Assembly: GCA_937125225.1 (NCBI GenBank)
Contig: CAKZLE010000020.1
Coordinates: 310,001 to 374,000, forward strand
Length of the DNA stretch: 64,000 nucleotides
From: an uncultured Spirochaetia bacterium
Lineage (GTDB): Bacteria; Spirochaetota; Spirochaetia; CAKZLE01
Direction of reading: 5' to 3'
Shown here piece after piece: positions 35,489-63,486 of this stretch. The notes beneath the pieces are model-generated. The model was not told the origin of the DNA. It was given only the letters and a program-made list of their open reading frames with translations, and made no database searches. A program made the position numbers and the translations under genes. Numbering within the stretch: position 1 is the stretch's first letter; every line of letters starts with the position of its first letter.

Positions 35489-35912
35489 ATATTTTATGTT
35501 ATAAGAATTGTCCTGTGTAACATTCTTATAGCCGTTACATAAGAACACTCTGGAATCATAAGATTGTGCAACAAATTGCAACTTTTTAATAATGATTGCT
35601 TATTTGCATTGAACCTGTTAGTATAAGATTCAGATATTCATTGTATGGTGAACTGATACATGAGCACTTATGTATAAACAGTAACCACGAAACCTTGCAG
35701 GCTTTGCAAGTCTAAAACAGCCAGTTCTTGTCGCACATTCGTGTGGTTTAATAGAAACAAATAAACCTTATTCAGTATCAATTTCGTGTGGTAGCGAAAA
35801 ATCATCCCATCTCAATGTGTTCTTGTGAGTGACCTGTTTCTCAAAAAGACTCTATTACCGTCTATACGGACGGATGAGAATATTTTTTGATAACGAGTAA
35901 GGAGTTTAGGGT
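35489..35912 (+). other. Long untranslated leader of the BMP/ABC-corrinoid operon
   Basis: No gene is seen in these 424 nt. They contain the short hairpin CTTGCA/TGCAAG (about 35693-35710), the direct repeat TTCGTGTGGT at 35738 and 35783, and a small CCGTC/GACGG hairpin about 40 nt before the bmp start. I could not match it to a known riboswitch; the cobalamin and purine riboswitch cores were looked for and not found. AAGGAG precedes the bmp ATG. Confidence 0.4.
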
Positions 35913-36992
35913 ATGAAGAAAGTTCTATGTCTATTTGCTATCCTGCTGGTTCTGTCTCCACTGTTCGCTGGTGGTGCTCAAGAAGCTGAGAAAGAAGATG
36001 AGTTCAAGGTAGGTTTTGTATTTACTGGACCTATCGGTGATAATGGTTGGACTCAACAGCATAATGCTGGTCGTCTAGCGATCGAGAATGAACTCGGTGT
36101 TGCAACATTGTACAAAGAGAGTGTTCCAAATACTCAAGAAAGTGCAAAAGTCATGAGAGACATGATCGCTCAAGGTGCTAAGATGATCTTTGCAACCAGT
36201 TTTGGTTACATGGATTACATGTTAGAAGTCGCTGCTGAGAACCCAGATGTAGCTTTCTTCCATTGCGGTGGATACAAGAACTCTGAGAATGCAGTGAACT
36301 ATCTTGGTAAGATGTACCAGGCTCGTTATCTATCCGGTATCGTAGCTGGCCTCAAGACAGAGACAAACAAATTAGGTTATATCGCAGCATTTGAGATACC
36401 TGAAGTAGTTCGAGGAATCAATGCATTCACTCTAGGTGCTCTCAGTGTCAATCCAGAAGCGACTGTCGAGGTGACCTGGACACATAACTGGAATGATCCA
36501 CCAAATGAGAAAGAGGCTTCTTTTGCTCTTATCGATAACGGATGTGACGTAATCGCTCAGCACCAGACAGCACCTGCAAACCTACAGGCAGCAGAAGCTC
36601 GTGGTGTATGGGGAGTCGGTTACCATGCAGATATGAATGACTCTGCTCCTGAAGCTTGTCTTACATCACCTTACTGGAACTGGGATCCCTTCTATGTAGC
36701 AGTGACTCAAGAGGTCATGGATGGTACATGGGATGCGAATAACTACTGGGGTGGAATGGAAGACGATGTGATCAGACTAGCTGAACTTGGAAAGAACGCA
36801 CCTGCTGAAGCAGCTGCGATCGTAGAAGAGGTCGCTGCATCTCTTGTTGACGGTTCTTTCGAAGTATTCGCCGGTCCTCTCTATGATAACCAGGGGAATA
36901 TGATCCTTGCAGATGGCGAATCCATGGATGATTTCGCTAAACTGGGAATGGGATTCCTCGTAGAAGGCGTTATCGGAAACATCGAGAACTAA
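35913..36992 (+). CDS. BMP family (PnrA-like) substrate-binding protein of an ABC importer
   Basis: 359 residues. The signal peptide ends in LFAGGAQEA and has no lipobox cysteine. The mature part is a BMP/PnrA fold: KVGFVFTGPIGDNGWTQQHNAG at the start, then IFATSFGYMD, VTWTHNWNDPPNEKEAS and GVGYHADMND. Known relatives bind purine nucleosides (PnrA) or riboflavin (RfuA); the ligand here is probably a small heterocycle. Codon use and the hairpin right after the gene suggest high expression. It is the first gene of a run of five ending in a corrinoid activator. Confidence 0.93.
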   Translation: MKKVLCLFAILLVLSPLFAGGAQEAEKEDEFKVGFVFTGPIGDNGWTQQHNAGRLAIENELGVATLYKESVPNTQESAKVMRDMIAQGAKMIFATSFGYMDYMLEVAAENPDVAFFHCGGYKNSENAVNYLGKMYQARYLSGIVAGLKTETNKLGYIAAFEIPEVVRGINAFTLGALSVNPEATVEVTWTHNWNDPPNEKEASFALIDNGCDVIAQHQTAPANLQAAEARGVWGVGYHADMNDSAPEACLTSPYWNWDPFYVAVTQEVMDGTWDANNYWGGMEDDVIRLAELGKNAPAEAAAIVEEVAASLVDGSFEVFAGPLYDNQGNMILADGESMDDFAKLGMGFLVEGVIGNIEN

Positions 36993-37012
36993 TAACTGAT
37001 CATTAATTGAAA

Positions 37013-37047
37013 TAAACAGGATGAGGAGTCCCTCCTTATCCTGTTTA
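37013..37047 (+). other. Intercistronic hairpin after bmp
   Basis: A 16-bp stem (37013-37028 with 37032-37047) with a 3-nt loop and no T tract. It probably stabilises the upstream mRNA or partly limits read-through, so that the binding protein is made in excess over the membrane parts. Confidence 0.7.
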
Positions 37048-37075
37048 TCGATCGTAGCAGGTGCAGGAGTATACG

Positions 37076-38599
37076 TTGAACAATGAATTCGTGATCAGAA
37101 TGGAGGGGATAACCAAAGAGTTCGGTTCCCTCAAAGCTAACAACAATGTAAATCTCAATATACGAAAGGGTGAAGTGCATGCCATCTTAGGTGAGAACGG
37201 TGCTGGGAAGAGTACCTTGATGAACATCTTGTCTGGTATCTACACCCCTGATCATGGAAGCATCAAGGTGAATGAAGAGGAAGTGGCCTTTCACTCTCCT
37301 CAGGATTCCATCGGTGCCGGAATCGGTATGATCTATCAGCACTTCAAGCTGATCAGTGCCATGAAGGCATGGCAGAATATCATAGCAGGACCCTCTGGAT
37401 CTCTTATGTTAGATAAGAAATCCTGTAAAAGAAAGATCAATGAGATCTGTGAAGAGACTGGACTCTCTTTGAATCTAGATGCCTATGTTTCAGATATGGG
37501 AGTAGGGCAGAAACAGACCCTGGAGATGCTTAAAGTTCTCTATAGAGGGGCCGAGATACTCATTCTCGATGAACCTACCACCGTATTGACTCCGCAGGAG
37601 ACCGACAGACTATTCTCGATCATACGGAAGATGCGTGATAGTGGTAAGACCGCTATTATTATCACCCATAAGCTGTATGAAGTCATGGAGATCAGTGATC
37701 GAGTCACCATCATGAGAAAGGGAGAGGTCATCACGACTCTCAATACGAAAGAGACCACACAGAAAGAGATAGCAGAGATCATGGTCGGAAAGTCTATGAT
37801 CATGGAGTTCCCAAGATTGAAGATCCCTCGAGGGGATGTCGTCATGAAGGTCAAAGATCTCAGATTAGAGGACCTTGTCTCTATGCGGAAGCTTAATGGA
37901 GTATCCTTCGAGCTTCACCATGGAGAGATCCTAGGAGTGGCAGGAGTATCAGGAAGTGGACAGAAACAGCTGTGTCAGGCTTTGACAGGGTTGCAGAAGA
38001 TAGATTCAGGAAGTGTGAGTGTCGATGGTGATGAGATCGCAGGGCTTACCGCCTATGATATCTTCAACAAGGGTGTCGCACAACTCAACTTCGTGCCTGA
38101 GGATCGATTAGGAATGGGGTTGATAGCAAGCATGAGCCTTGTCGATAATGTGATGCTGCGAGATTACCAGAATGGTGACAGTATCTTCATCGATTCAAAG
38201 AGGGCCTATAAAAGAACAGAAGAACTCGTCGAAGCTCTTGATGTCATGCATCCGGGGATCGATAAACCCATCAGTGTCCTCTCAGGTGGAAATCTGCAGA
38301 AGATCCTGATCGGTAGAGAGATCATGAGTGAACCGAATATCCTCATAGCCTCCTATCCTGTTCGAGGTCTGGACCTTGGAGTGACCCACAAGGTGGTAGA
38401 ACTCCTCAACGAACAGAAACAACGTGGAGCCGGGGTACTGCTCATTGCAGAGGACCTTGATCTGATGCTTGAAGTCTGTGACCGGATCATGGTCATGTAC
38501 TGTGGAAAGATCTCAGGTATCGTCGATCCTGAGACCATCACGAAGAACGATCTCGGTGTTCTTATGACATCGATCGACGAGGAGTGCCCAAATGGCTAG
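37076..38599 (+). CDS. ABC importer ATPase, two-domain nucleoside/sugar type
   Basis: 507 residues from TTG 37076, with AGGAG 6 nt upstream; GTG 37061 is the alternative. It has two fused ABC domains. The first has a full Walker A (GENGAGKST) and Walker B (ILILDEPTTVLTP). The second has the degenerate Walker A (GVSGSGQKQ) usual in this type, and LSGGNLQKI. It powers uptake with the two permeases downstream and the BMP binding protein. The next gene overlaps its end by 8 nt. Confidence 0.94.
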   Translation: MNNEFVIRMEGITKEFGSLKANNNVNLNIRKGEVHAILGENGAGKSTLMNILSGIYTPDHGSIKVNEEEVAFHSPQDSIGAGIGMIYQHFKLISAMKAWQNIIAGPSGSLMLDKKSCKRKINEICEETGLSLNLDAYVSDMGVGQKQTLEMLKVLYRGAEILILDEPTTVLTPQETDRLFSIIRKMRDSGKTAIIITHKLYEVMEISDRVTIMRKGEVITTLNTKETTQKEIAEIMVGKSMIMEFPRLKIPRGDVVMKVKDLRLEDLVSMRKLNGVSFELHHGEILGVAGVSGSGQKQLCQALTGLQKIDSGSVSVDGDEIAGLTAYDIFNKGVAQLNFVPEDRLGMGLIASMSLVDNVMLRDYQNGDSIFIDSKRAYKRTEELVEALDVMHPGIDKPISVLSGGNLQKILIGREIMSEPNILIASYPVRGLDLGVTHKVVELLNEQKQRGAGVLLIAEDLDLMLEVCDRIMVMYCGKISGIVDPETITKNDLGVLMTSIDEECPNG

Positions 38600-39668
38600 A
38601 ATAGTACCACTTGAGAACTGCTCAATGGCAAAGAAGGTGAGGATCAGAGTCTTTGCGATACTCATGGCCTTCACCTTGTCTGGTTTTCTCCTGCTTTTTC
38701 TGGGACATAATCCCTTTGAAGTATATGCATCGATGCTCGATGGAGGACTCGGCTCCTCTTATCGAGTGAAAGAGACACTGATTCGGACGATACCGTTCGC
38801 ACTGACCGCTCTCGGTATAGGTCTCTCCTTCAGAATGAAATTCTGGAATATCGGAGGAGAAGGACAGATCATGATGGGTGCCTGTAGTGCGACTTTCATC
38901 GGTCTTAACTTCCAACAGCTACCCTCATTTATTCTGCTTCCTCTTATGGCTATAGCCGGAATGATCGGTGGAGGGCTCTGGGCTCTCATACCTGCATTTT
39001 TGAAAGTGAGATACCGGACTAATGAGACTATCCTCACATTGATGCTCAACTATGTCGCTTTGAAATGGATCACCTATCTTCAGTATGTACTCTGGAGAGA
39101 TCATGAGGCCTTCGGTTATCCAAAGATACCGAACCTCGTCAAGAATGCTCAACTCCCCAAGATCTTCGGACTTCATATCGGGGTCCTCTTAGTTCCTATA
39201 CTCGTCATAGGTATCTATCTTTTTATCACCTATACCAAAAAGGGTTATGAGATCCGGGTCATCGGTGAGAATGAGGCCACTGCACGTTATGCAGGGATGC
39301 CTACCTCGAAGATCATCCTCGGGACTCTCTTCGTAAGTGGTGGTATCTGTGGTGTGGTCGGAATGATCCAAGTCGCAGGTGTGAACATGACCTTGAGTAT
39401 AGATGTCAGTAACGGAGTCGGGTATACCGCTATTATCATCGCCTGGCTAGCCCAGCTGAATGCCATAGCGATCCTGGTCGTATCTTTCCTCTTTGCCGTG
39501 ATGGTCGAGGGTGGCTCCTATATTCAGACAGTATTTCAGATACCTCAGGCTGCAGCCTCATTGCTACAAGGTCTTATCCTGTTCTTTGTACTTGGTAGTG
39601 AGTTCTTTATAAAATATCGTGTGATACGAGATCGAAAGACGCGTATCGTCACTGAAGGGGAGGTCTAG
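38592..39668 (+). CDS. ABC importer permease (BPD_transp_2)
   Basis: 358 residues with about nine membrane helices. Family marks are FRMKFWNIGGEGQIMMGACSA in the first half and YEIRVIGENEATARYAGM in the cytoplasmic loop. It is one half of the membrane channel of a nucleoside-type importer. GAGGAG lies 7 nt before the ATG, and the gene overlaps the ATPase gene by 8 nt. The second permease starts after a 1-nt gap. Confidence 0.93.
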   Translation: MARIVPLENCSMAKKVRIRVFAILMAFTLSGFLLLFLGHNPFEVYASMLDGGLGSSYRVKETLIRTIPFALTALGIGLSFRMKFWNIGGEGQIMMGACSATFIGLNFQQLPSFILLPLMAIAGMIGGGLWALIPAFLKVRYRTNETILTLMLNYVALKWITYLQYVLWRDHEAFGYPKIPNLVKNAQLPKIFGLHIGVLLVPILVIGIYLFITYTKKGYEIRVIGENEATARYAGMPTSKIILGTLFVSGGICGVVGMIQVAGVNMTLSIDVSNGVGYTAIIIAWLAQLNAIAILVVSFLFAVMVEGGSYIQTVFQIPQAAASLLQGLILFFVLGSEFFIKYRVIRDRKTRIVTEGEV

Positions 39669-39669
39669 T

Positions 39670-40611
39670 ATGGATCTGAACTGGTTCGTATGCTTCCTTG
39701 GAGCAGCAGTAGTCGCAGGTACCCCATTGGTCCTTGCGACCTTGGGAGAACTCATAACAGAGAAGAGTGGATCATTGAATCTCGGTGTCGAGGGAATGAT
39801 GTACATGGGAGCTATCATCGGCTTCACGACTGGTCTTCAGACTGGAAGTCCCTTCTTCGCCTTCATTGGTGCTGCTCTTGCCGGAATCCTTGGAGCGATG
39901 ATCTTCGGCTTCGTCACCATAACCTTGAGAGCCAACCAGATTGTTACTGGTCTGACTCTTACGATGTTCGGGACGGGCTTTGCGGGATTTATCGGTACGC
40001 CGATCATCGGAGAACGGGCACCACAGAAGATCATCGATACCTTCGTTAAAGTGAAATTACCTCTTTTAGGTGATATACCGGTGATAGGGGAGATCTTCTT
40101 CAATCAGGACTATCTCGTCTACCTGACCTATATCCTCATTATTCTAGTAGGCTTCTATCTCTATAAGAGTAGATATGGACTCAACGGAACGATCGTCGGT
40201 GAAAATCCAAAGGCCGCAGATTCTCTAGGAATCTCGGTTATAGGGTACAGATACCTGCATCTAGCAATGGGTGGAGCCCTTTGTGGTCTAGCCGGAGGAT
40301 ATCTCTCCTTGATCTATGTCCCCTCTTGGCAGGACTCTATGATCGCAGGACGAGGATGGATCGCTGTTGCTTTGGTGATCTTCTCCAAATGGAATCCCTA
40401 CCGTGCCTATATCGGGGCACTGTTCTTCGGTGGATTGAATATCGTAGGTTTCAGATTACAGCAGTTCGATCTGCCAGTCTCGACCTATCTATTGGATGCT
40501 CTTCCCTATCTTATGACAGTCATCGTACTAGTCTTCGATTCGATGAGAAGTAAATCACGAAGTCATGCACCTGCAGGACTCGGAACACCCTATTTCAGAG
40601 AGGAGCGCTAG
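39670..40611 (+). CDS. ABC importer permease, second subunit (BPD_transp_2)
   Basis: 313 residues with about nine membrane helices. The signature TEKSGSLNLGVEGMMYMGAIIG and the loop GLNGTIVGENPKAADSLGISV are typical. It pairs with the preceding permease. GGGGAGG precedes the ATG. The corrinoid activator gene starts only 8 nt after its stop, which ties transport to methyl transfer chemistry. Confidence 0.93.
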   Translation: MDLNWFVCFLGAAVVAGTPLVLATLGELITEKSGSLNLGVEGMMYMGAIIGFTTGLQTGSPFFAFIGAALAGILGAMIFGFVTITLRANQIVTGLTLTMFGTGFAGFIGTPIIGERAPQKIIDTFVKVKLPLLGDIPVIGEIFFNQDYLVYLTYILIILVGFYLYKSRYGLNGTIVGENPKAADSLGISVIGYRYLHLAMGGALCGLAGGYLSLIYVPSWQDSMIAGRGWIAVALVIFSKWNPYRAYIGALFFGGLNIVGFRLQQFDLPVSTYLLDALPYLMTVIVLVFDSMRSKSRSHAPAGLGTPYFREER

Positions 40612-40619
40612 CGAATCAG

Positions 40620-42470
40620 ATGAGAGATGACCGTACCTATACGATAACTTTATTACCTCAACAACTGCATACCACCGCCTCTTTTGGGGATAATCTCCAT
40701 ACGGTGATCCATGCGATCCTTGTTGAGGTCGGTAGTGAACAACTCTCTGGGTATCAGAGTCCCTGTGGGGGCAGAGGTACCTGTGGTAAATGTAAAGTAC
40801 AGATCATATCGGGTATGACCTCACCCTTGAGTTCTCAGGAAGAGAGCCTTCTCAGTGAAGAAGAGATATCATCAGGTATACGCCTAGCCTGTTATCAGAG
40901 CATCGAGGATGATCTTATCATCAGAGAGTTCGCAGAACATCGTGAGATGTCAGTCGAGACCTCCTTCAACTCAGAGGAGGAGATGACCGTTGATAGAAGA
41001 TTCGTCGAGAGTGTTCTGATCACCTGTGAACTCCCGACCTTAGAGAATAATCAAGATATCGCTGCTAGAGTCATCGCTGCAGTGAAGGAGAAACACTCCC
41101 TCACTGATCATGAACTATCGCTCAACGTTCTTCATCAGCTTGCTGTGATGAATAGACATCTGACAGAGATAAAGGAATCTGTAGAGATATGGGTCCATAT
41201 CTGTAATGGGCGAATCAGTGGAATCAGCCCTGCTGAGGGACTCGAGAACTTCTTTGGCATCGCGGTAGATGTCGGAACGACTACTATAGCCTGTTATCTC
41301 ATAGATCTTGCCAATGGCAATATAATAGGAACTGAATCTGCTCTGAATGCACAGCATATCGCAGGAGCGGATGTGATTGCCCGAATCGGCTATACCATGA
41401 GCGAGGGAGATGGTTCTCAGATTCTCTCTGACTCGGTAAAAGAACAGATACAGGATCTGATCCTGAACCTCTGTGGATCCTATCAGGTATCCCCGGAACA
41501 GATCACCTCTGCAGCGATCGCAGGAAATACGACGATGATGCATCTACTGCTTGGTGTAGATGCAAGGACCATAAGTAGATATCCTTTTAACCCCGTATTC
41601 ACCAACAGTCTGATCTGCAGGGATCTCTTCGGAGAACTATTGAACTGTTCTGTCTATCTGCTCCCGAGTGCCTCAGGGTATATCGGCGCTGATATCGTAG
41701 GTGGAGTGGTCGCTATCGGGATGGAAAAGTCTCCGAAGACCTCGCTGTTCGTTGACATCGGTACCAACGGTGAGATCGTCTTGAAGACCGATAGTGCCGT
41801 CTATACCTGTTCTACAGCAGCAGGCCCAGCCTTCGAAGGGGCGAGCCTCTCGTGTGGATCTGGTGGTGTGACCGGTGTCATCGATAGTGTGACCTATCAT
41901 GATGAGAGCTTCAGATTCACTACGATCGGAGATATGGAACCTATGGCTATCTGTGGCTCAGGAGTACTCGATGCGGTAGCTCTTCTCATCAATGAGGGGC
42001 TCATCGATAAGAAGGGTAAGTTCACAGGAACCGATCATCAGTTGAGTGACCGGATCATAGAGGTCAAGGGGCAGAGGGCTCTGGCATTCGTTGGAGAGAA
42101 GGTCTATCTCAATCAAGCTGATATCCGAGAGATACAGCTGGCAAAGTCAGCGATCTGTACCGGGATAGAGTCTCTGAGTTCTGCTGCCGGAATCGCTCTT
42201 GAGGATATAGAGGTTCTCTATATTGGTGGAGGGTTCGGAAGTAAGATACGAATCTCCAGTGCAGCAGTGACGGGATTGATACCAGCAGTATTGTCAGACC
42301 GGGTCATCTGTGTGGGGAATTCCTCAGGAAGAGGTGCAGCAGGAGCCCTGCTAGATAAGAGTTTCAGAGAACGATGCGAAGCATTGCGAACGAATATGCA
42401 AGTTATTGATCTTTCTGGGCGTAAGAGCTTTACGAAGGATCTGATGAGAAATATGTACTTCAATGCGTAA
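40620..42470 (+). CDS. Reductive activator of corrinoid proteins (RACE, ASKHA/DUF4445)
   Basis: 616 residues. The N-terminal 2Fe-2S ferredoxin-like domain has Cys ligands in SPCGGRGTCGKCKVQ and a fourth in LACYQ (about residue 98). A linker leads to the ASKHA ATPase-like domain (GIAVDVGTTTIACYLIDL, FVDIGTNGEIVLKT, IAGNTTMMHLLLG). Such proteins use ATP to return inactive Co(II) corrinoid to Co(I) in methyltransferase systems. The gene follows the importer with an 8-nt gap and precedes the methyltransferase genes. GAGGAG lies 14 nt before the ATG, an unusually long spacing. Confidence 0.93.
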   Translation: MRDDRTYTITLLPQQLHTTASFGDNLHTVIHAILVEVGSEQLSGYQSPCGGRGTCGKCKVQIISGMTSPLSSQEESLLSEEEISSGIRLACYQSIEDDLIIREFAEHREMSVETSFNSEEEMTVDRRFVESVLITCELPTLENNQDIAARVIAAVKEKHSLTDHELSLNVLHQLAVMNRHLTEIKESVEIWVHICNGRISGISPAEGLENFFGIAVDVGTTTIACYLIDLANGNIIGTESALNAQHIAGADVIARIGYTMSEGDGSQILSDSVKEQIQDLILNLCGSYQVSPEQITSAAIAGNTTMMHLLLGVDARTISRYPFNPVFTNSLICRDLFGELLNCSVYLLPSASGYIGADIVGGVVAIGMEKSPKTSLFVDIGTNGEIVLKTDSAVYTCSTAAGPAFEGASLSCGSGGVTGVIDSVTYHDESFRFTTIGDMEPMAICGSGVLDAVALLINEGLIDKKGKFTGTDHQLSDRIIEVKGQRALAFVGEKVYLNQADIREIQLAKSAICTGIESLSSAAGIALEDIEVLYIGGGFGSKIRISSAAVTGLIPAVLSDRVICVGNSSGRGAAGALLDKSFRERCEALRTNMQVIDLSGRKSFTKDLMRNMYFNA

Positions 42471-42524
42471 CGATAGTGTGTAAGGAGGTCTAGCGGGTAG
42501 AATAAAGGTGTTACGAAATTCTGT

Positions 42525-42757
42525 CATAATCTTGCAATTGATTGTTTTTGCCAGAAGATGACAGATTGTAGTTTGTGGTGAGAAGCCATGCCTGCAAGCA
42601 TTCGCAACCTTGTCCATGACAAGTTTAAAACCTGGCGCTTGTTCGGTTATTTATGGATTTCTATCCATCGGATGGTCGATCTTGAGATACTCATGATCGA
42701 ATAGAGAGAGGGGGCAGGTACCCCCGTACAGTCTTTAATTTGGATAAGGAGAATGAT
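42525..42757 (+). promoter_or_regulatory. Structured leader with possible promoter before the methyltransferase gene
   Basis: A weak extended -10 (TGTCATAAT, CATAAT at 42525-42530) may start a transcript. Four hairpins follow in a row: CTTGTC/GACAAG (42609-42614 with 42618-42623), ATGGAT/ATCCAT (42653-42658 with 42663-42668), TCGATC/GATCGA (about 42677-42700) and GGGGG/CCCCC (42710-42714 with 42721-42725). The last lies 20-30 nt before the ribosome binding site. I could not match it to a known riboswitch class. Confidence 0.45.
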
Positions 42758-44143
42758 ATGAAACAGAAACCAGATCTTATTGAGATCCTGCGTAGATCTC
42801 GTGAAGGGGAGTACTGTAGTGCTCATGAATGGGACGTGAAGAGAGTTCCTAAAGCCGTGAAGAAGATGCTCAAGAAATATGATCTTCAGAATAAACTCGA
42901 CAAAGAGAACCCCGTCAATATGGATATGGAGCTAGCAGATAAGTTCTACCAGGCAGGATTCGACCTTGCTCTGGAACTCGGAATGCTCAATGAGGCTCGA
43001 GATAGGATCGTCAAGATCGATGAAGAGGAGCTCATCAGTACGTTGCACCTCGCACCGGCAGAGGTAGAACTCGGTTTCGGGCATGATAAGAGAATCATGA
43101 AATCTCGAACACCTTCCGACCCATACCCAATGCTCTTCGGTTCTTCTCTTGGTATCACCATGAGTGAAGAGGCTTGGCCTTATATCACTGAAGGTATCGC
43201 TAGACAGCCACAGGTCGACATCCTCGAATCAGGCTCACTATGTTCCATCAATGGTCTTGAAGCACTTCCGAATGACCCTTCAGAGACACTTCTGTGTTAT
43301 GAACAGGGACGTAAGCATGTCGCTCTCAGACGACAGGCAGGAAGAGAAGGAATGCCTGGTATTGGAAACATCTCAGCTGTGACCGAGTTCGGACAGTTCT
43401 GTTATGGAACTAGAGGGAACTTCTATACAACAGACCTCTCTTTGATCCTCTACCCATCAGAGATGAAGATCAACAATCAGACCATGCATAAGGTAGTACA
43501 TACTCTCGCTATGGGTGGAATGGTATTCGCTGGGTCTCCAGGAATGATCGGTGGAATGCCGGGACCTCCAGAAGGTGCAGTCATCTCAAGTATCGCAGCA
43601 GCACTCCTGCAGTATGCGATCCTCTTCTCGACCGTTGGTGGTGGAGAGCTCTATGACATCAGATACTTGTCAAACGTCAACCGTGAAGGTCTCTGGGCTT
43701 TAAGTGTCACACATCAGGCATTGAGCAGAAACACACACCTCTGTACTCATGGCATCGCAAATCAGGTATCAGGTCCAGGAACAAAAGAACTTCTCTATGA
43801 AACACTCGTAGGTGTCTCTGTTATCGCAGCCTCAGGAGCGTCTTTCTCAACAGGACCTCGTTCTGCAGGTGGAAAGTTCAATGACTACCTTTCTCCATTA
43901 GATTGTCGATGGTGTGCTGAAGTTGCTCACGCAGCATCAGGTATGGATCTCAAAGATGTGAATGCTCTCGTAAAAGAGTTCCTTCCAGAGTTCGAAGACA
44001 ATATCAAGACTCCGAACATCGGAAAACCTGTACAAGAAGTATGGGACCTCAAGAACTTCAAGCCTCTTCCAGAAGCTGAAGCAGTATATAACGAAGTACG
44101 AAGCCGAGCTAAAGCATTCGGCCTTCCACTTGACGCTATCTAG
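42758..44143 (+). CDS. MtmB-family corrinoid methyltransferase without pyrrolysine
   Basis: 461 residues from ATG 42758, with AAGGAG 7 nt upstream; archaeal MtmB has 458. The N-terminus (SREGEYCSAHEWDVKRVP) and the body follow monomethylamine methyltransferase. In methanogens the pyrrolysine lies at residue 202 in a GMGV-Pyl-GPE loop followed by GNIS. Here the matching stretch is AGREGMPGIGNIS (194-206), so about nine residues including pyrrolysine appear deleted. No in-frame TAG occurs inside the gene. MtmB proteins move a methyl group from a methylated amine to a corrinoid protein, and the partner gene follows directly. Loss of pyrrolysine implies a different substrate or mechanism. Codon use suggests strong expression. 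Confidence 0.85.
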   Translation: MKQKPDLIEILRRSREGEYCSAHEWDVKRVPKAVKKMLKKYDLQNKLDKENPVNMDMELADKFYQAGFDLALELGMLNEARDRIVKIDEEELISTLHLAPAEVELGFGHDKRIMKSRTPSDPYPMLFGSSLGITMSEEAWPYITEGIARQPQVDILESGSLCSINGLEALPNDPSETLLCYEQGRKHVALRRQAGREGMPGIGNISAVTEFGQFCYGTRGNFYTTDLSLILYPSEMKINNQTMHKVVHTLAMGGMVFAGSPGMIGGMPGPPEGAVISSIAAALLQYAILFSTVGGGELYDIRYLSNVNREGLWALSVTHQALSRNTHLCTHGIANQVSGPGTKELLYETLVGVSVIAASGASFSTGPRSAGGKFNDYLSPLDCRWCAEVAHAASGMDLKDVNALVKEFLPEFEDNIKTPNIGKPVQEVWDLKNFKPLPEAEAVYNEVRSRAKAFGLPLDAI

Positions 44144-44173
44144 AAAAGAAAAAGAGTTTAGGAGAATTTTAAT

Positions 44174-44869
44174 ATGAGTGATTTGATTAATAAATTGTAT
44201 GAAGCAGTCATTGAAGGTGAAGAAGACGACGCTCTGGAGATTGCGAAAGCAAGTATCGAAGCTGGACTCGAACCTTTGAAGGTTATTCGTGGTGGTATCC
44301 AGGCTGCAATGGATCTTATGGGAGATCAGTTCGAGAACGGTGAAGCGTTCCTCCCTGAGTTGATGCTCGCAGGTGATGCGGCGACTCTCGCAATGGAAGT
44401 ACTTCTTGCGAAGATCAAAGAAGATGGTGGAGAAGGTGCAGATTCCGGAACAGTCGTTATCGGTGTCATGGCAGGTGACCATCATGATATTGGAAAGAAC
44501 CTGGTTCGAGCTATCCTCTCCGCGAATGGATTCAAGGTCATTGACTTAGGAATCGACGTTGGAGTCAGAGACTTCATCGAAACAGCTAAGAGAGAGAATG
44601 CGAAAATCATCGCCTGTTCTACTCTTATCACCACATCTCTTCCATACCAGAAAGAGCTCATTGAGACTCTAGATGCTATGAAGATCAGAGAGAAATATCA
44701 GGTCATCCTCGGTGGTGGTCCTGTTACTCCTCAGTGGACGAACATGATCAAGGCTGACGGTTATTCGAATACTGCATCAGAGTGTGTTGAACTCTGTAAG
44801 CAGCTTGTATCCCGTGACCTTGAAGGTGGAGCTGCAGACCCGATCATCATCGGTGCGCTGAACGCTTGA
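44174..44869 (+). CDS. Corrinoid protein (MtmC/MtbC type)
   Basis: 231 residues. The N-terminal four-helix cap (MSDLINKLYEAVIEGEEDDA, FLPELMLAGDAA) precedes the B12-binding Rossmann domain with the DHHDIG motif (102-107); His104 should be the lower cobalt ligand. LITTSL and LGGGPV complete the fold. It carries the methyl group between the MtmB-like enzyme and a second methyltransferase, probably the UroD-type protein at 49400. It starts 30 nt after the MtmB-like gene with GTTTAGGAG upstream. A strong hairpin follows the gene. Confidence 0.95.
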   Translation: MSDLINKLYEAVIEGEEDDALEIAKASIEAGLEPLKVIRGGIQAAMDLMGDQFENGEAFLPELMLAGDAATLAMEVLLAKIKEDGGEGADSGTVVIGVMAGDHHDIGKNLVRAILSANGFKVIDLGIDVGVRDFIETAKRENAKIIACSTLITTSLPYQKELIETLDAMKIREKYQVILGGGPVTPQWTNMIKADGYSNTASECVELCKQLVSRDLEGGAADPIIIGALNA

Positions 44870-44880
44870 TAGACTATTAA

Positions 44881-44926
44881 AACCATCTGAGACCGGTAGG
44901 CATCTGTCTATCAGTCTCAGGTGGTT
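44881..44926 (+). other. Hairpin after the corrinoid protein gene
   Basis: A 13-bp stem AACCATCTGAGAC/GTCTCAGGTGGTT (44881-44893 with 44914-44926) with a 20-nt loop and no T tract. Like the one after bmp, it probably protects the 3' end of an abundant upstream mRNA segment while the operon continues. Confidence 0.6.
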
Positions 44927-44948
44927 CATCTATATGAGATGAGATTGC

Positions 44949-45620
44949 ATGAGAAAGACCTATTTGATCATCTGTGAGACGATATACGTAGAGTGTGAGT
45001 CGATCATACCTGATGATATGCTTGTCCTGAAACAGGACTTTACTCTACATAACAAACCTGATCTATTACGGGAGCATCTACAGGAGATCATTGATTCCAT
45101 ACCTGGAAAAGATGATGATATCGTATTAGGGTATGGACTCTGTTCCAATGCGACAGTGGGACTCTCTTCTAAGAGCCACAGACTGATACTCCCTAGGATC
45201 CACGATTGCATAGCTCTGTTCTGCGGCTCCCAATCCTGTTATAACAGGCATAAGGATGAGGCTATCGGGACCTTCTTCTTGACGAAAAGATTCATAGAAT
45301 CAGAAGATGGGAGATTCCATCTGTTAGAATACGATACATATATTGAGAGATACGGGGAGAAACTCGCACACAAGTATACGAAGATGCTTTTGACCCATTA
45401 CGAGAGGGCCGCACTTGTCGATACTGGTGAATATGATACTGCTCCCTATAAGAAGCTTGCACAGGAGTTCTGCGAGAGGTATGAGCTCGATTATACTGAG
45501 ATCACCGGGGATCAACGTTTGATGGTAAAACTCTTCTCTGAGGATTGGGATCATGAGATCATCATAGTCAAACCTGGGAATGAGGTCACTCTTCTTGATT
45601 ACTTGACTGATGCTCAGTAA
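44949..45620 (+). CDS. DUF1638 protein associated with methyltransferase systems
   Basis: 223 residues. The family pattern is clear: LGYGLCSNATVGL followed by LILPRIHDCIALFCGSQSCY. Cys, His and Asp residues in these two motifs could bind a metal. Genes of this family sit beside corrinoid methyltransferases in methanogens and anaerobic bacteria, but I know of no assigned function. Here it lies between the corrinoid protein and the molybdenum hydroxylase genes. The ribosome binding site is weak (GAGATGAG). Confidence 0.85.
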   Translation: MRKTYLIICETIYVECESIIPDDMLVLKQDFTLHNKPDLLREHLQEIIDSIPGKDDDIVLGYGLCSNATVGLSSKSHRLILPRIHDCIALFCGSQSCYNRHKDEAIGTFFLTKRFIESEDGRFHLLEYDTYIERYGEKLAHKYTKMLLTHYERAALVDTGEYDTAPYKKLAQEFCERYELDYTEITGDQRLMVKLFSEDWDHEIIIVKPGNEVTLLDYLTDAQ

Positions 45621-45696
45621 CAGACCATAGTAGATTTCTGGATTTCACGGTAGAATCCAAACAGATAATAACTAATTGAAGGAGTTGGAGGAATGT

Positions 45697-46494
45697 ATGA
45701 TAAGAAGTTATAAGCAGCCTCAGACAATAGAAGAGGCAGTCGCTTTGAAGAAAGAGCAGCCCGACGCAGATTATTTTGCGGGTGGGACCTGTATAAATCA
45801 TGCTGATTGCACTCAAACATATACCCATGTGATCTCTTTGGATAAATTGGGATTGGACTCGATAGAGATAGTAGACGGTGTGGTGAGGATAGGGTCTATG
45901 ACCACCTTTCAGAATCTTGTTGATTCTCCTCTGATCATGCCTGTCGTCAAGGATGCGGCAAGAGCTATCTATTCTCGTAATGTGAGGAACATGGCGACAA
46001 TCGGTGGGAATCTCGCAAGTTGTTGGACTCATTCAGCTATGATTCCTGCATTGACTGCATTGAAGTCAGTGATAGAACTCTCCACAAAAGAGGATCTACC
46101 TATTGAAGAGTTTCTCGACTCTCAGAGTGAGGCTCTGATCACTGCGGTAAAGATACCTTTGAGTAATAGAGCCTGTTCAGTCAAAAGAGTCAGGAGATCT
46201 AGTGGCTCGAAGACCCTCTTGAGCTTTGCAGTTTCTCTGGAACTCAGTGAAGACGGGATGTGCATAGACCCTATCGTTATCGCGACAGGTTTTGCTGAGG
46301 TCCCTGTGAGGCTATCTGAGATAGAGACGCTTCTTACTAAGAGAAAAGAGCATTCGGTTTTCGAGTTCGATCTGGCCTTCAGAGCCATGAAAGAGCTTTC
46401 CACTGATGAACATAGCTCAAAAGCATATAAGACCTATATCTCGGCACGAACGGTCGTAGCCTGTGCAGAGCAATGTAAGGAGGTACTGGCATGA
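45697..46494 (+). CDS. ygfM: YgfM-type FAD subunit of a molybdenum hydroxylase
   Basis: 265 residues from ATG 45697, with GGAGG 6 nt upstream. The FAD-binding fold of xanthine dehydrogenase medium subunits is recognisable in DYFAGGTCINH, RIGSMTTFQNL and RNMATIGGNLAS. It resembles E. coli YgfM, the partner of XdhD. It would carry electrons from the molybdenum subunit to an acceptor. The xdhD start overlaps its stop (ATGA), so the two are made together. The usual 2Fe-2S subunit gene is absent; compare the cysteine-free domain of XdhD. Confidence 0.88.
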   Translation: MIRSYKQPQTIEEAVALKKEQPDADYFAGGTCINHADCTQTYTHVISLDKLGLDSIEIVDGVVRIGSMTTFQNLVDSPLIMPVVKDAARAIYSRNVRNMATIGGNLASCWTHSAMIPALTALKSVIELSTKEDLPIEEFLDSQSEALITAVKIPLSNRACSVKRVRRSSGSKTLLSFAVSLELSEDGMCIDPIVIATGFAEVPVRLSEIETLLTKRKEHSVFEFDLAFRAMKELSTDEHSSKAYKTYISARTVVACAEQCKEVLA

Positions 46495-49367
46495 AAGTGA
46501 ACTTTACGTTAAATGATGTACCTCGAACAGAGGCCGTATCAGTTAATGAGAATCTGCAGGAGATGCTGCAGAGGATCGGTATGATATCAGTCAGAGATAG
46601 TGACAACCATCGAGGTTTTGTTGGATCCGATACCATCCTATTCGATGGGGTTCCAGTGAATGCTGGATTGATGATCGCAGCACAGATCAATGGACATTCC
46701 ATCACCACTGCTGAAGCTCTCTCTACCATAGAGCGACCCTTGAGCCCAGTTCAATCTGCGATGATCGATGCAGGTGTAGTCCAATCTGGCTACAATGCTC
46801 CGGCTGCTGCACTTTTGATAACCGAACTTCTTGCTCGGAAGGCTGATCCTAGCAAAGCAGAGATCAAAGAAGCCCTATCCTCTCTATACAATCGTGCAAC
46901 TGGATATGAGCAGTTCTTCACGGCTGTAGAGCTTGCGAAGAAACGGATCATTGATGAGAAGGCAACCATGAAAGTGAGCGATGAGTTCAGAGATGATCTG
47001 AAGTATGTCGGAAAGGCTCACCGAAAGGTTGATGGTGCTAAACTCGTTAGAGGAGATAGAGCTTTCGTAGAGGATATGGTCCTCCCTGGCTCTTATATCC
47101 TGAAGATGTTACACAGTCCCCATGCCTCAGCTTATATCATGAATATTGATACTACAGAAGCTGAAGCACTCCCGGGTGTACGACTCGTACTTACCTATAA
47201 GAATGTTCCCGATAACTACTATACCCCGGCTGGACAGGGCTTCCCTGAACCATCCCCTTGGGATAGACGGATGTTCTCTCAGAAGGTCAACCATGTGGGA
47301 GATCGAGTAGCTGCAGTCGTGGCAGACACCGAAGCGATAGCTCTTACAGCCCTTGAAAGGATCAAGGTCGAATATGAGGTCCTCAAACCTGTGTTCACCA
47401 TAGAAGAGGCTGAAGCAGAGGGCTCTCCCATCGTCCATAACTCAGTGGTCTCCTATGTAGTAGGGGCTCCTGATGACTTGGAAGAGAAGAACAAGAACGC
47501 AGATCCAAGAGATGGCAGGATAGAGATCCAGTTTCCTATCGGTGCTGACCCCCATGCCAATAAGGCGGCAAGTGTATCAGGCTCTATCGGAGATGTCGAG
47601 AAGGGCTTCGCAGAGGCTGATACCGTCATCGAGAGAACCTATGAGACTGCTCAGTTCCAGTGTACTCCTTGTGAGACACATATCGTATATACCAAGATGG
47701 ATGGGGATCGATTGGTCATCCATGCATCAACACAGGTGCCGTTCTTCGTCAGGAGGATCGTCTCTAAGATCATAGGTATTGATGAGAACAAGATACGTGT
47801 CATCAAGGAACGAGTAGGTGGTGGGTATGGTTCGAAGCAGGAGGTCCTCCTAGAGGATGTCTGTGCCTATGCGACCTGGATCACCAAGAAACCGGTTCTT
47901 TTCCACTTCACTAGAGAAGAGGAATATACTAATAGTGTATCTCGATTCCCCATGAAGATAACCGTGAAGATCGGAGCCAAGAAAGATGGTACCTTCACTG
48001 CGATGTATATGGATCTGAAGGCCAATAATGGTCCATATGGAAACCATTGTCTGACAGTCCCCATGAACGGTTGTTCAAAGTCATTACCACTCTATCTGAG
48101 TGATAACATAGCCTTTGATGTGAACGTGTTCTATTCGAATATCATGCCTACCGGAGCCTACCAGGGTTACGGTGCACCAAAAGCGAACTTCGCTCTGCAT
48201 ATGGCTATCGCAGAGCTCTCCGAAAAACTCGGGATCGATATGCTCGAAGTCGTTGAGAAGAATCGAGTCGATGAAGGGGATACCCTTGAGATCCTTCGAT
48301 GTCTCGGAGAGGGACGAGAGGGCACACCTGCTACGATCAAGAGTTGTGGACTCGCTGCATCAGTATCTGAAGGTGCGAAGATGATCGAGTGGGGTAAGAA
48401 AGAAGAGAGTTCAGATATCGACATCAAGATCGGAAAAGGAATGGCTTTGATCCAACAGGGATCAGGACTACCTGGACTCGATATATCGAATGCTGATGTG
48501 AAGATGCTCAATGATGGTTCGGTGATCATCCACTCAGGTGGAGCGGATCTTGGAACAGGTCTTGATACGATCAGTGTGAAGATGACTGCAGAGATCCTCA
48601 ATATGGATCCAGAGCGGATCACTATCCTCTCAGGCGATACTGACCAGACACCGTTCGACACTGGAGCCTTCGCATCGAGTGGTACCTTCTTCTCTGGTGG
48701 TGCAGTCAACAATGCTGCAGAAGAGTTGAAGAAGAAGATCCTCAAGACTGCTTCAGAGATGATAGGAGAACCTGTGGAGGATCTGAATCTGCAGTTCCCT
48801 GAGAAGGTTAATGGGCTCAAGGGCTCCGTGACCTTCAGAGAGATCGCTCAGGCGACTCATGGTGGTGAGAGTGAGGGACAGCTCATTGGCTCAGCCTCCT
48901 TTACCTGTGATGACGCCTCGTTCCCTTATGGTGCTCACTTTGCACAGGTAGCTGTGGATAGAAGGACCGGTGAAGTCAAAGTACAGAAGTATTATGCATT
49001 GCAGGACTGCGGGACACCGATCAACCCCGAACTAGCAGAGGGACAGATCTATGGAGCTGTCATGAAGTCTATCGGGCATACCTTGTATGAGGAGGTGAAG
49101 CTCTCTCCAGAAGGAAAGAACCTCACTACTGACCTCGAATCCTACGGAGCACCACTTATCGGTGATATCCCAGAGGATTTCAAGGTAAAACTCGTTGAGA
49201 CGACAGATCCCTACGGACCTTTCGGAAGCAAGTCGGTCTCAGAGATCGCTATGAACGGAGCTGCTCCTGCTATCGCTAATGCGATACATGATGCACTCGG
49301 AATATGGATAAGAGAACTCCCTATAACACCAGAGAAGATCCTTCGGGCATTAGGGAAGATCAAATAA
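46491..49367 (+). CDS. xdhD: XdhD-type molybdenum hydroxylase, large subunit with cysteine-free Fe-S-like domain
   Basis: 958 residues, against 956 in E. coli XdhD, and alike along the whole length. Residues 1-165 have the shape of the 2Fe-2S small subunit but no cysteine: QCGFCTPG is QSGYNAPA (98-105) and LCRCTGY is LYNRATGY (132-139). The molybdopterin domains follow (RVGGGYGSKQEVLLEDV, GGADLGTGLDT), with the catalytic Glu in SVSEIAMNG near the end. The family hydroxylates purines and similar N-heterocycles, and XdhD belongs to anaerobic purine or urate breakdown clusters. Here it sits in a methyltransferase cluster. The gene overlaps ygfM by 4 nt, and the UroD-type gene starts 32 nt downstream. 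Confidence 0.92.
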   Translation: MKVNFTLNDVPRTEAVSVNENLQEMLQRIGMISVRDSDNHRGFVGSDTILFDGVPVNAGLMIAAQINGHSITTAEALSTIERPLSPVQSAMIDAGVVQSGYNAPAAALLITELLARKADPSKAEIKEALSSLYNRATGYEQFFTAVELAKKRIIDEKATMKVSDEFRDDLKYVGKAHRKVDGAKLVRGDRAFVEDMVLPGSYILKMLHSPHASAYIMNIDTTEAEALPGVRLVLTYKNVPDNYYTPAGQGFPEPSPWDRRMFSQKVNHVGDRVAAVVADTEAIALTALERIKVEYEVLKPVFTIEEAEAEGSPIVHNSVVSYVVGAPDDLEEKNKNADPRDGRIEIQFPIGADPHANKAASVSGSIGDVEKGFAEADTVIERTYETAQFQCTPCETHIVYTKMDGDRLVIHASTQVPFFVRRIVSKIIGIDENKIRVIKERVGGGYGSKQEVLLEDVCAYATWITKKPVLFHFTREEEYTNSVSRFPMKITVKIGAKKDGTFTAMYMDLKANNGPYGNHCLTVPMNGCSKSLPLYLSDNIAFDVNVFYSNIMPTGAYQGYGAPKANFALHMAIAELSEKLGIDMLEVVEKNRVDEGDTLEILRCLGEGREGTPATIKSCGLAASVSEGAKMIEWGKKEESSDIDIKIGKGMALIQQGSGLPGLDISNADVKMLNDGSVIIHSGGADLGTGLDTISVKMTAEILNMDPERITILSGDTDQTPFDTGAFASSGTFFSGGAVNNAAEELKKKILKTASEMIGEPVEDLNLQFPEKVNGLKGSVTFREIAQATHGGESEGQLIGSASFTCDDASFPYGAHFAQVAVDRRTGEVKVQKYYALQDCGTPINPELAEGQIYGAVMKSIGHTLYEEVKLSPEGKNLTTDLESYGAPLIGDIPEDFKVKLVETTDPYGPFGSKSVSEIAMNGAAPAIANAIHDALGIWIRELPITPEKILRALGKIK

Positions 49368-49399
49368 CAAATCTAGAACAAGGAGAAACTACTGATTAG

Positions 49400-50770
49400 A
49401 TGAATGGAAAAGAGTTAGTCATTGACATCTTGAATCATAAAGAGGTCCCAAGACCTGCATGGGTCCCCTATGCAGGGATACATGCAGGGAAGACAAAAGG
49501 GTATAGTGCTATTGAGGTCCTCCAGGATGAGGATAAACTCCTCGAATCTCTCATTGAGGTGAACAGGCTCTACAGTCCAGATGGACAGACGGTCATGTTC
49601 GATCTTCAGTTAGAGGCTGAGATCCTTGGATGTGAACTGAAATGGGTAGAGAAGAATCTGCCTTCAGTAGTCTCACACCCTCTGAAGAAGAACCCTGAGA
49701 TCCCTACCCAGATGCTGAAGAAAGATGATGGACGACTTCCTATGGTCTGGAACGTCATGCGACGTTTCAAAGAGGCCGTTGGTGACCATACCGCTTTATA
49801 TGGACTATTCTGTGGACCATTTACTCTAGCCTCTCATCTTCGAGGTACCAAGCTGTTCATGGATATGATCAAGAATCCAGATTATATGCATGAGATCCTA
49901 GCCTATACCACTGAGATCGCCATAAACATGTGTGACTTCTATATCGAAGAGGAGATGGATATCATCGTGCCGGTGGATCCTCTGATGTCTCAGATCTCAC
50001 CAAAACACTTTGCTCAGTATTTTCTCGAACCCTATACGAGACTCTTTGACTACATCCGGGAGAAGGGTTCCTACAGCTCCTTCTTCGTCTGTGGTAATGC
50101 GATCCATAATATCGATCTGATGTGTCAATGTGGACCTGATGCGATCGCAGTTGATGAGAATGTCAGCATGATCGAAGCAAAGAAGATCACGGATAAGCAT
50201 GATGTGGTCCTCGGAGGTAATATTCCGCTGACGACCGTGATGCTCTTTGGGAATCAGCAAGACAATATGAAATATACGGTCGATATGCTCGATGGGATGG
50301 AAGCTGCAGGGCTCTCGATAACGAAGAACCTGATCGTCGCACCAGGTTGTGACATGCCCTATGATGTACCGCCACAGAACTCTGTAGCAGTCGCACAGGC
50401 AGTCCAGGATACTGATGTGGTCAGGAAACTCGTAGAGAATCATTCAGATAGTACTAACTTCGCAGATATCAAGGTCGATCTACCAGATTATGAGAACCTC
50501 GATAGACCTCTTATGGAGGCCTTCCTTCTCGATCCTATCGCCTGTGCTGCCTGTACCTATATGGAGGCAGCGGCCAAGTCCGGGAAAGAGGTCTTGGGAG
50601 ATAGCATAGATTTTGCAGCCTATCAATACAATAATCCTGATGATATAGCTCGAATACAGCAGCTCGGTATCACCTGTCTGCCAAGTATCTATATCAATGG
50701 TGAGTTGAAATACCCCTCGATCATTCCCAGTACCGAAGAACTCGTAGAGGAACTTAAAAAGCTCATGTGA
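49400..50770 (+). CDS. UroD-family corrinoid methyltransferase fused to a thioredoxin-like domain
   Basis: 456 residues. Residues 1-345 follow the uroporphyrinogen decarboxylase-like methyltransferases (MtbA/MtaA/CmuA), which pass the methyl group from the corrinoid protein to a thiol acceptor through zinc. Of the His-x-Cys...Cys zinc site, Cys231 (FFVCGN) and Cys317 (APGCDMP) remain, but the His position is Phe229. Residues 365-456 form an added thioredoxin-like domain with a CAAC motif (382-385) and a cis-Pro region (TCLPSIYING). The usual length is about 340, so the extension is a fusion. An in-frame TAG directly precedes the ATG, so no earlier start is possible. AGGAG lies 14 nt upstream. 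Confidence 0.85.
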   Translation: MNGKELVIDILNHKEVPRPAWVPYAGIHAGKTKGYSAIEVLQDEDKLLESLIEVNRLYSPDGQTVMFDLQLEAEILGCELKWVEKNLPSVVSHPLKKNPEIPTQMLKKDDGRLPMVWNVMRRFKEAVGDHTALYGLFCGPFTLASHLRGTKLFMDMIKNPDYMHEILAYTTEIAINMCDFYIEEEMDIIVPVDPLMSQISPKHFAQYFLEPYTRLFDYIREKGSYSSFFVCGNAIHNIDLMCQCGPDAIAVDENVSMIEAKKITDKHDVVLGGNIPLTTVMLFGNQQDNMKYTVDMLDGMEAAGLSITKNLIVAPGCDMPYDVPPQNSVAVAQAVQDTDVVRKLVENHSDSTNFADIKVDLPDYENLDRPLMEAFLLDPIACAACTYMEAAAKSGKEVLGDSIDFAAYQYNNPDDIARIQQLGITCLPSIYINGELKYPSIIPSTEELVEELKKLM

Positions 50771-50812
50771 TCAATATGATCGAATCTGTTGGATGAACGC
50801 ATCCAATGATCG

Positions 50813-50860
50813 GGCTATCAGCTAGCAGTCAATCTTCTGTTGGTTGGTAGCCTTTGTTTT
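50813..50860 (+). terminator. Terminator of the methyltransferase/hydroxylase operon
   Basis: A 16-bp stem rich in G-U pairs (50813-50828 with 50837-50852), an 8-nt loop and TTTGTTTT. It closes the cluster that begins at the bmp gene. Confidence 0.75.
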
Positions 50861-62143: not shown

Positions 62144-62232
62144 AGTTCGATTATAGCATGAACAGAGAAAAATTCCTTTCATAAGATCTATATTCTGATA
62201 GAATGAGGCATCTCATTCGTGGAGTTATAGAT

Positions 62233-63486
62233 ATGATAAGAGCATACCGAGGCGATATCGTCTACAGTGCAGATAAAGATGAACTAAGAGTCTTTGACGA
62301 TAGTTATATCATAGTGAAAGCGGGTAAAGTCCTCGAGATCACAAAAAAGTTACCGCAAGAGTACAAGAATCTAGAGATCATCGATCATTCCGGGAAAATG
62401 ATCATCCCTGCCTTCTCTGATATGCATCTCCATGCTTCCCAGTATTACCAACGAGGTGTGGGAATGGATAGACTCCTGCTCGATTGGCTCAATGATTATA
62501 CCTTTCCGCAGGAGAGCCGGTTCGAGGATATGGGGTATGCAGAACGTGCCTATGACCTTTTTACTGAAGATCTCATCAATCATGGGACGCTTCACGCGAG
62601 TATCTTCACGACCATCCATTATGAAGCTTCTGATTATCTTTTCAACCTGTTAGAGCGCAAGGGGTTGTATGCCTATGTCGGGAAACTGAACATGAATCAG
62701 AACTGTCCTCCTTCTCTACGAGAGAACACGAAGGACTCAATCCTCGATACAGAGAGGTTCATCCTCGAACATCAAGGGGGTAAGACAGTAAGCCCGATCA
62801 TTACCCCAAGGTTTGCCATCTCCTGTACAGAAGAACTCATACAAGGACTCGGAAGTCTGGTAAAGCGGTACAAGGTGCCAGTACAGACTCATCTGTGTGA
62901 ATCCGAAGAGGAGATGCGTACTGTGAGTACTCTCTTCCCAGAGTACTCATACGATTCTGAGATCTATCTCAAGTATGGATTGATCGGGAACAGTCTGTCT
63001 CTCATGGCCCACTGTATCTACTTGGATGAGAAGGATATCAAGGTGCTCAATAGTCATGGAGGGGTTGCAGTACACTGTCCCGACTCCAATATCAATGTGA
63101 CTGCTGGTCTCATGCCTTCAGCAAGCCTTGCAGATACCGGGATGAATCTCACTCTCGGCAGTGATATCGGAGGAGGCCATGATATTCCCATATACCGTGC
63201 AGTGGCTCGGGCAGTGCAGGTCTCGAAGATTCGGGTCCAGCTTGGGTTGGATCAGCGGAAGCTCTCGTTAACGGAGGCCTTCTACTTTGCGACAAGAGCT
63301 GGGGGTGAATGCTTTGGTGAGATGGGAGCCTTCGATCAGGGGTATCATTTCAATGCACTAGTCATTGATGATGAACGATTTCGCGGTCTAGAGATCGGAA
63401 TCTCTGACAGATTGGAGAGATTCTGTTATATCGGGGATGACCGTAATATCATAGCACGGTATGTCGACGGGAAGCTGTTAGACTGA
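62233..63486 (+). CDS. guaD: Guanine deaminase
   Basis: 417 residues from ATG 62233, with GGAG 8 nt upstream. An in-frame ATG at 62203 is possible but lies within about 9 nt of a TATATT -10 box. The amidohydrolase metal motif is PAFSDMHLHASQY near residue 65. Further metal ligands lie in VQTHLCESEEE, MAHCIYL and LGSDIGGGHD. The HLHASQY signature is that of guanine deaminase. It turns guanine into xanthine, which a molybdenum hydroxylase could oxidise further. A TauE/SafE permease gene converges from the right. Confidence 0.9.
   Translation: MIRAYRGDIVYSADKDELRVFDDSYIIVKAGKVLEITKKLPQEYKNLEIIDHSGKMIIPAFSDMHLHASQYYQRGVGMDRLLLDWLNDYTFPQESRFEDMGYAERAYDLFTEDLINHGTLHASIFTTIHYEASDYLFNLLERKGLYAYVGKLNMNQNCPPSLRENTKDSILDTERFILEHQGGKTVSPIITPRFAISCTEELIQGLGSLVKRYKVPVQTHLCESEEEMRTVSTLFPEYSYDSEIYLKYGLIGNSLSLMAHCIYLDEKDIKVLNSHGGVAVHCPDSNINVTAGLMPSASLADTGMNLTLGSDIGGGHDIPIYRAVARAVQVSKIRVQLGLDQRKLSLTEAFYFATRAGGECFGEMGAFDQGYHFNALVIDDERFRGLEIGISDRLERFCYIGDDRNIIARYVDGKLLD

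Follow-up and report, generated by a model that had tools for sequence, protein, structure and literature searches.

What compound does a bacterium take up and break down with an operon that joins a probable purine-base importer, a corrinoid-dependent methyltransferase and a molybdenum enzyme? The question is raised by eleven co-directional genes on the forward strand at positions 35913-50770 of a 64,000-nucleotide stretch (the window) of the genome of an uncultured Spirochaetia bacterium (contig CAKZLE010000020.1; genome G000 below), identified from open reading frames and family searches of the window. We consider it likely that this operon serves the oxygen-independent use of an N-methylated purine base (methylurate, methylxanthine or methylguanine). 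A first-pass annotation of the same DNA had described eleven same-strand genes with named domains and a closing terminator, all of which were borne out by the family searches and a 17-pair hairpin. It had also proposed import, ring hydroxylation and corrinoid-dependent demethylation of an N-methylated heterocycle. Of this idea, import and demethylation are well supported by the gene context and can be narrowed to purines, but ring hydroxylation probably does not stand.

The methyltransferase, the ring enzyme and the importer

A substrate methyltransferase, its corrinoid protein and an ATP-dependent activator are all encoded in the one operon, as in corrinoid-dependent methyltransferase systems. 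The methyltransferase is a member of the MtmB family (PF05369, 218.7 bits against a cut-off of 25), and its predicted structure (pLDDT 88.7) had the MtmB structures 1tv2, 1l2q and 1nth as top fold matches (TM 0.93). As had been noticed in the first pass, the protein lacks pyrrolysine: the gene has no internal stop or in-frame amber codon, and Ile occupies the column of MtmB pyrrolysine-202 in the alignment. Similarly, the Glu, Glu and Gln at MtmB columns 229, 259 and 333, which we take to be pyrrolysine or ammonia contacts, are Leu, Gly and Ile in the window protein. Its identity as a monomethylamine enzyme was rejected based on the absence of pyrrolysine. The likely start is the ATG at 42767, rather than the TTG at 42740, as this ATG is conserved in the orthologue from another genus of the family (G001, below). 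The earlier statement that MtmB, MtmC and RACE demethylate amines was incomplete, in that the only characterised MtmB homologue without pyrrolysine, MtqB, uses tetramethylammonium and choline (PMC13044021).

In a tree of 37 MtmB sequences, which did not include MtqB, the window protein sits in a branch of 17 with support of 100/100. For fifteen of the 17, a purine-type gene lies no more than 10 kb away; the exceptions are an archaeal member (Hecatella) and that of locus L061, where a Rieske gene and an aminohydrolase gene are about 10 kb from mtmB. The sister group, whose five members come from G010 and G035 and in part from one and the same genome, shows no purine genes. The linkage is clustered on the tree (6 changes), although it is not exclusive to the branch, as some remoter Acidimicrobiia MtmBs of the islands described below are also purine-linked. 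The branch is rare, being present in 2 of 296 Acidimicrobiia genomes, in 2 of 200 genomes of the termite Treponema family and, at a strict threshold, in 1 of 393 genomes of the phylum, namely G000. Two observations concern distant homologues: in G040 (L020 10609-16721) a BMP importer is directly followed by one of 25% identity, with no corrinoid gene seen nearby, and in G026 (L019 9347-17462) a YgfK gene (52% to E. coli) lies about 4 kb from a lone one.

The window XdhD matches its curated family (TIGR03313) with 1312.5 bits, above the cut-off of 1101.9, and the product of the adjacent ygfM (preferred start ATG 45697 over TTG 45676) scores 152 bits to TIGR03312, under the cut-off of 241.5. For XdhD-YgfM of the E. 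coli type, reduction of urate to 2,8-dioxopurine (yanthine) was demonstrated in 2025, and Glu606 of XdhD was proposed to orient the urate (PMC12507026). In the alignment with E. coli XdhD, the window protein likewise has no 2Fe-2S cysteines left in its fused N-terminal domain and keeps Glu606. A purine hydroxylase was rejected, since the family match, the lost cysteines and Glu606 indicate the urate reductase type. XdhD/YgfM of the operon is thus probably urate-reducing, and the ring hydroxylation assigned to it in the first pass is probably wrong. The mtmB-linked XdhDs of three genomes form one clade (90/99; recovered in 200 of 200 bootstrap trees), separate from the uricolytic XdhD paralogues of two of the same genomes, and xdhD was thus duplicated and retained with mtmB. 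This retention suggests either a methylated substrate for XdhD or a self-contained unit.

The best solved relatives of the substrate-binding protein are AtzT (6pi5, E 1.3e-79) and then 3s99. AtzT was purified with guanine bound (KD 0.11 uM; PMC6834077). Four of its seven guanine contacts (S97, F98, E165 and W194) are identical in the window protein, while Y45 is replaced by Trp, N218 by His and N220 by Thr, and this His and Thr are found in all three spirochaete orthologues. In AtzT, Asn218 and Asn220 closely contact the isopropyl group of 2-hydroxyatrazine (PMC6834077), and we infer that other residues at these positions could make room for a methyl group.

Conserved gene order and purine linkage

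All eleven genes are present in identical order at locus L014 of G001 (record JAIPFY010000018.1). The importer genes and mtmB are 68-83% identical between the two (mtmB 83%), whereas RACE, ygfM and DUF1638 are at 35%, 39% and 44%, respectively. That the order has been kept while neighbours diverged or were replaced in place argues for selection for the gene combination, and its persistence despite three genes at 35-44% is more than chance. The RACE gene of G001 (L014 8901-10871) was apparently swapped in place for a non-orthologous activator.

The most direct link to purine breakdown was found in a deep-sea spirochaete, "Spirochaetes bacterium Dive96_bin4.94" (G035, JAJSAL010000165.1). Its mtmB, 69% identical to that of the window, belongs to a co-directional run of genes for a GntR protein, a methyl-tetrahydrofolate (THF):corrinoid methyltransferase (293.9 bits, cut-off 259), MtmB, a corrinoid protein, RACE and a BMP importer, continuing with an 8-oxoguanine-deaminase-type enzyme, ygfM, xdhD, ygfK, ssnA, ygeY and ygeW. 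The last six of these belong to the E. coli reductive urate pathway. The aminohydrolase scores 579.7 bits to the curated 8-oxoguanine deaminase family (cut-off 532); an SsnA label for it was rejected because it exceeds this cut-off and the true SsnA is encoded four genes further along. SsnA is over its curated cut-off in G000, G001, G035 and G416. The mtmB of G035 (L015, reverse strand) has one in-frame TAA near the C terminus, at 10690-10695, with clear homology beyond it, which may be a point mutation or an assembly error.

The genome of the window itself encodes a separate uricolytic cluster (C35) of ygfK, ssnA, ygeY, a molybdenum-hydroxylase trio, an 8-oxoguanine-deaminase-type enzyme, ygfM, xdhD and ygeW. 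A search identified YqeB (55%) downstream on the same contig (L034 16141-19899). By reading alone, this region also has genes for SirA-like, SelD and cysteine desulfurase proteins, which fits labile-selenium molybdenum enzymes.

Looser versions of the association occur elsewhere. In termite-gut Spirochaetaceae/Treponema (G416, G417), mtmB homologues (35-40%) are beside genes for corrinoid proteins, a BMP importer, XdhABC-type subunits and aminohydrolases. Islands in Acidimicrobiia (G415, G523, L027/L028) carry several mtmB genes (the closest at 54-61%), BMP importers, XDH subunits and aminohydrolases, together with the methyl-THF:corrinoid methyltransferase known from G035 (59-60%) and MetF with its C-terminal partner. 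Near mtmB, these islands also encode a Rieske enzyme that has NdmB (E 3.5e-48) and NdmA (E 5.2e-48) as its best solved relatives, and oxygen-dependent and oxygen-independent demethylases are apparently side by side. The NdmA/NdmB-like gene adjoins mtmB at L055 6573-7661 (G415) and at L061 829-1908 (G523, by eye only).

The first-pass annotation had suggested searching for genomes in which the MtmB-like gene is conserved together with xdhD/ygfM and the BMP importer, and this search succeeded in several genomes from two bacterial phyla. Molybdenum hydroxylases of any kind map to just a handful of sites in G000 and G001, and on this basis we estimate the probability of chance linkage at a few per cent per genome.

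The features of the operon are listed in Table 1. Intergenic distances range from -8 to 79 bases, the single exception being the 296 bases upstream of mtmB. A further amidohydrolase-family gene (PF01979) is at 62203-63486 of the window, 11 kb downstream of the operon.

Table 1. Features of the operon in the window and of its candidate leader RNA.
Feature	Position	Strand	Basis
BMP-type substrate-binding protein, AtzT-like, probable purine-base binder	35913-36992	+	PF02608; relative of AtzT 6pi5
ABC transporter ATPase with two ATPase domains	37061-38599	+	PF00005 (ABC_tran), two stretches
ABC permease 1	38592-39668	+	PF02653 (BPD_transp_2)
ABC permease 2	39670-40611	+	PF02653 (BPD_transp_2)
Corrinoid-protein reductive activator, RACE/RACo-like, N-terminal 2Fe-2S domain	40620-42470	+	PF14574, PF17651, PF00111
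MtmB-family methyltransferase without pyrrolysine, proposed methylated-purine:corrinoid methyltransferase	42767-44143	+	PF05369; fold match
Corrinoid protein, DHHDIG motif	44174-44869	+	PF02607, PF02310; motif seen in translation
DUF1638 protein, probable accessory for corrinoid reactivation	44949-45620	+	PF07796; genetic link in Phaeobacter inhibens (PMC5764234)
YgfM-type FAD subunit	45697-46494	+	PF00941 (FAD_binding_5); TIGR03312 below cut-off
XdhD-type molybdenum enzyme, urate-reductase type, fused N-terminal domain without Fe-S cysteines	46491-49367	+	TIGR03313
UroD-family (MtaA/CmuA-like) methyltransferase fused to thioredoxin-like domain, probable second methyltransferase	49400-50770	+	PF01208; TIGR01463 below cut-off
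Terminator-like hairpin	50812-50853	+	17 pairs, then TTGTTTT
Candidate leader RNA copy A, about 160 bases upstream of importer operon	35640-35750	+	Core hairpin 35694-35710, then TCTAAAAC; motif 35694-35718
Candidate leader RNA copy B, within the 296-base gap upstream of mtmB	42604-42645	+	Motif 42609-42631
Same motif in the G001 operon, matching places	L014 3940-3969 and 10988-11010		

Proposed pathway and alternative explanations

Gene content, protein families, synteny and the tie to uricolysis are read from the sequences. In the pathway that we infer from them, including the substrate class, the order of steps and the methyl acceptor, a methylated purine base would be imported by the AtzT-like binding protein and ABC transporter, and its N-methyl group would be transferred by the MtmB-family enzyme to the corrinoid protein in the Co(I) state. 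RACE would keep the corrinoid protein reduced, together with DUF1638, a family genetically tied to a RamA-like activator and corrinoid reactivation in Phaeobacter inhibens (PMC5764234). The UroD-type enzyme would hand the methyl group on to a further acceptor. XdhD-YgfM would reduce the ring, as urate or methylated urate, to a yanthine-type product. This would then be degraded by YgfK, SsnA, YgeY and YgeW, whose genes lie at another place in G000.

In G035 and the Acidimicrobiia the methyl acceptor is probably THF. The operons of G000 and G001 have no methyl-THF:corrinoid methyltransferase and the UroD-thioredoxin fusion stands in its place. The C-terminal thioredoxin-like stretch of the fusion is weak (20.8 bits, below the cut-off) and has a CAAC motif, and the zinc motif of the UroD enzyme is FVC, not HxC, in both the window and G001 (L014 17698-19062).

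Several points weigh against a methylated purine as the substrate. MtqB acts on quaternary amines (PMC13044021), purine activity is a prediction for every member of the MtmB branch of the window, and purine genes are lacking around its archaeal member. The binding protein departs from AtzT at three of the seven contacts. A deaminase, YgfK and SsnA were not found within the window operon, ygfK and ssnA being located at C35 of the same genome. The canonical zinc-ligand His of the UroD enzyme is replaced by Phe, and a methyl-THF:corrinoid methyltransferase was not found in G000, where the sole pterin-binding domain found is in a MetH-sized frame of 1211 residues near MetF, presumably MetH.

The substrate could also be a non-purine N-methyl compound, such as choline or another quaternary amine, trigonelline, creatinine or N-methylhydantoin, with XdhD/YgfM in an unrelated or different step. 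The activity of MtqB on tetramethylammonium and choline and the varied ligands of BMP importers are consistent with this explanation, but it does not account for the genes of uricolysis, XDH and purine-deaminase-type enzymes that recur near mtmB in two phyla, for a binding protein of guanine type or for the sister MtmB branch without purine linkage, and we consider it very unlikely. An alternative that we find quite unlikely, though it retains the purine, has import and XdhD act first and the MtmB-like enzyme act on a methylated fragment (an N-methylated ureido or amino intermediate) after ring reduction and opening. The duplication of xdhD and its retention with mtmB, as if XdhD acted on a still-methylated ring, would fit this order, as would the continuation of the same run in G035 with the genes for YgfK, SsnA, YgeY and YgeW. 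However, a ring-opening enzyme is absent from the operons of the window and G001, and the Acidimicrobiia mtmB is paired with an NdmA/B-like Rieske enzyme, of a family that demethylates the intact base.

Finally, the operon might serve purine or urate catabolism of the usual kind, the corrinoid genes being only co-regulated, for methionine or one-carbon supply, and no methylpurine undergoing demethylation, given that UroD-type and DUF1638/RACE proteins are also present in methionine-related systems (PMC10418091, PMC5764234). Against this, methionine synthesis from methyl-THF has no use for a substrate-specific methyltransferase of the MtmB family, and the genome already has the MetH-sized protein, MetF and a separate uricolytic cluster; this explanation is extremely doubtful.

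Candidate leader RNA and known systems

The 3.43 Mb genome G000 contains exactly two copies of a hairpin motif, CTTG-N(3-20)-CAAGTYTAAAAC, one in the leader of this operon and one before mtmB. G001 also has exactly two, at equivalent positions, and copy A is conserved in the G001 leader. Across 395 genomes of the class, the exact pattern had only scattered matches, not above a reversed-pattern control, apart from these operon copies. When 437 kb of related loci were scanned with a covariance model of the motif, nothing beyond the four members of the model was recovered. Rfam gave no match over the operon at E up to 1, covariation over the four copies was not significant and the leader copy had an ordinary folding energy. 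A DNA operator reading of the CTTG/CAAG repeat was rejected, as the arm spacing varies among the copies and a hairpin fits better. The putative CTTG...CAAGTYTAAAAC hairpin may be a regulatory RNA of the operon. A bolder proposal, which we consider unlikely as a whole, is a dedicated oxygen-free route in which an MtmB-family corrinoid enzyme would demethylate nucleobases (e.g., caffeine-type compounds, or 7-methylguanine released as RNA is turned over). This route would feed into reductive breakdown of the purine, and in the spirochaete family it would be under the control of an operon-specific RNA, possibly a methylpurine riboswitch.

Methylated purines are shed by cells from RNA and released by people as caffeine. 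In the open-licence literature, no paper was found on corrinoid enzymes with methylxanthine, methylated purine, caffeine or 7-methylguanine, or on the combination of corrinoid demethylation with reductive uricolysis. Oxygen-free demethylation of methylated purines, which is missing from the literature searched, would, if true, be joined to the 2025 urate-reducing route of gut bacteria, and a branch of MtmB homologues without pyrrolysine would thereby be given a testable substrate class. Homologues of this kind are numerous (a 2026 tree held 1,061 MtmB sequences, with and without pyrrolysine), yet a function is known for a single one of them, reported in March 2026 (PMC13044021).

Among known systems, the Type 1 mlp clusters likewise combine a UroD-type MtaA-like protein, a corrinoid protein and RACE without a THF methyltransferase, but need at least two MtaA-like proteins (PMC10418091), whereas the operon has one, fused to a thioredoxin-like domain, plus the MtmB-like protein. 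AtzT, which is closest to the binding protein among solved structures, shares with it the aromatic sandwich, Ser97, Phe98 and Glu165, and differs in having Asn218/Asn220 (PMC6834077) where the window protein has His/Thr.

The caffeine N-demethylases NdmA and NdmB have the same proposed overall job, with a relative beside mtmB in Acidimicrobiia and none in the window operon; they are aerobic Rieske oxygenases that need O2 and yield formaldehyde. Reductive uricolysis by XdhD-YgfM/YgfK/SsnA/YgeY/YgeW/YgeX (PMC12507026) has in common with the operon the curated XdhD family, the loss of Fe-S cysteines and Glu606, and the pathway is encoded both in G000 and directly downstream of the mtmB block in G035. 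The described clusters differ in having no corrinoid methyltransferase and acting on unmethylated urate (PMC12507026), and the mtmB-linked XdhD forms its own clade. MtqB/MtqC of Methanococcoides methylutens Q3c similarly pair an MtmB-family methyltransferase without pyrrolysine with a cognate corrinoid protein, but in a methanogen, with coenzyme M as acceptor, a quaternary-amine substrate and no mention of a purine importer or XdhD (PMC13044021). The closest precedents are MtqB/MtqC for the chemistry (PMC13044021) and reductive uricolysis for the ring (PMC12507026).

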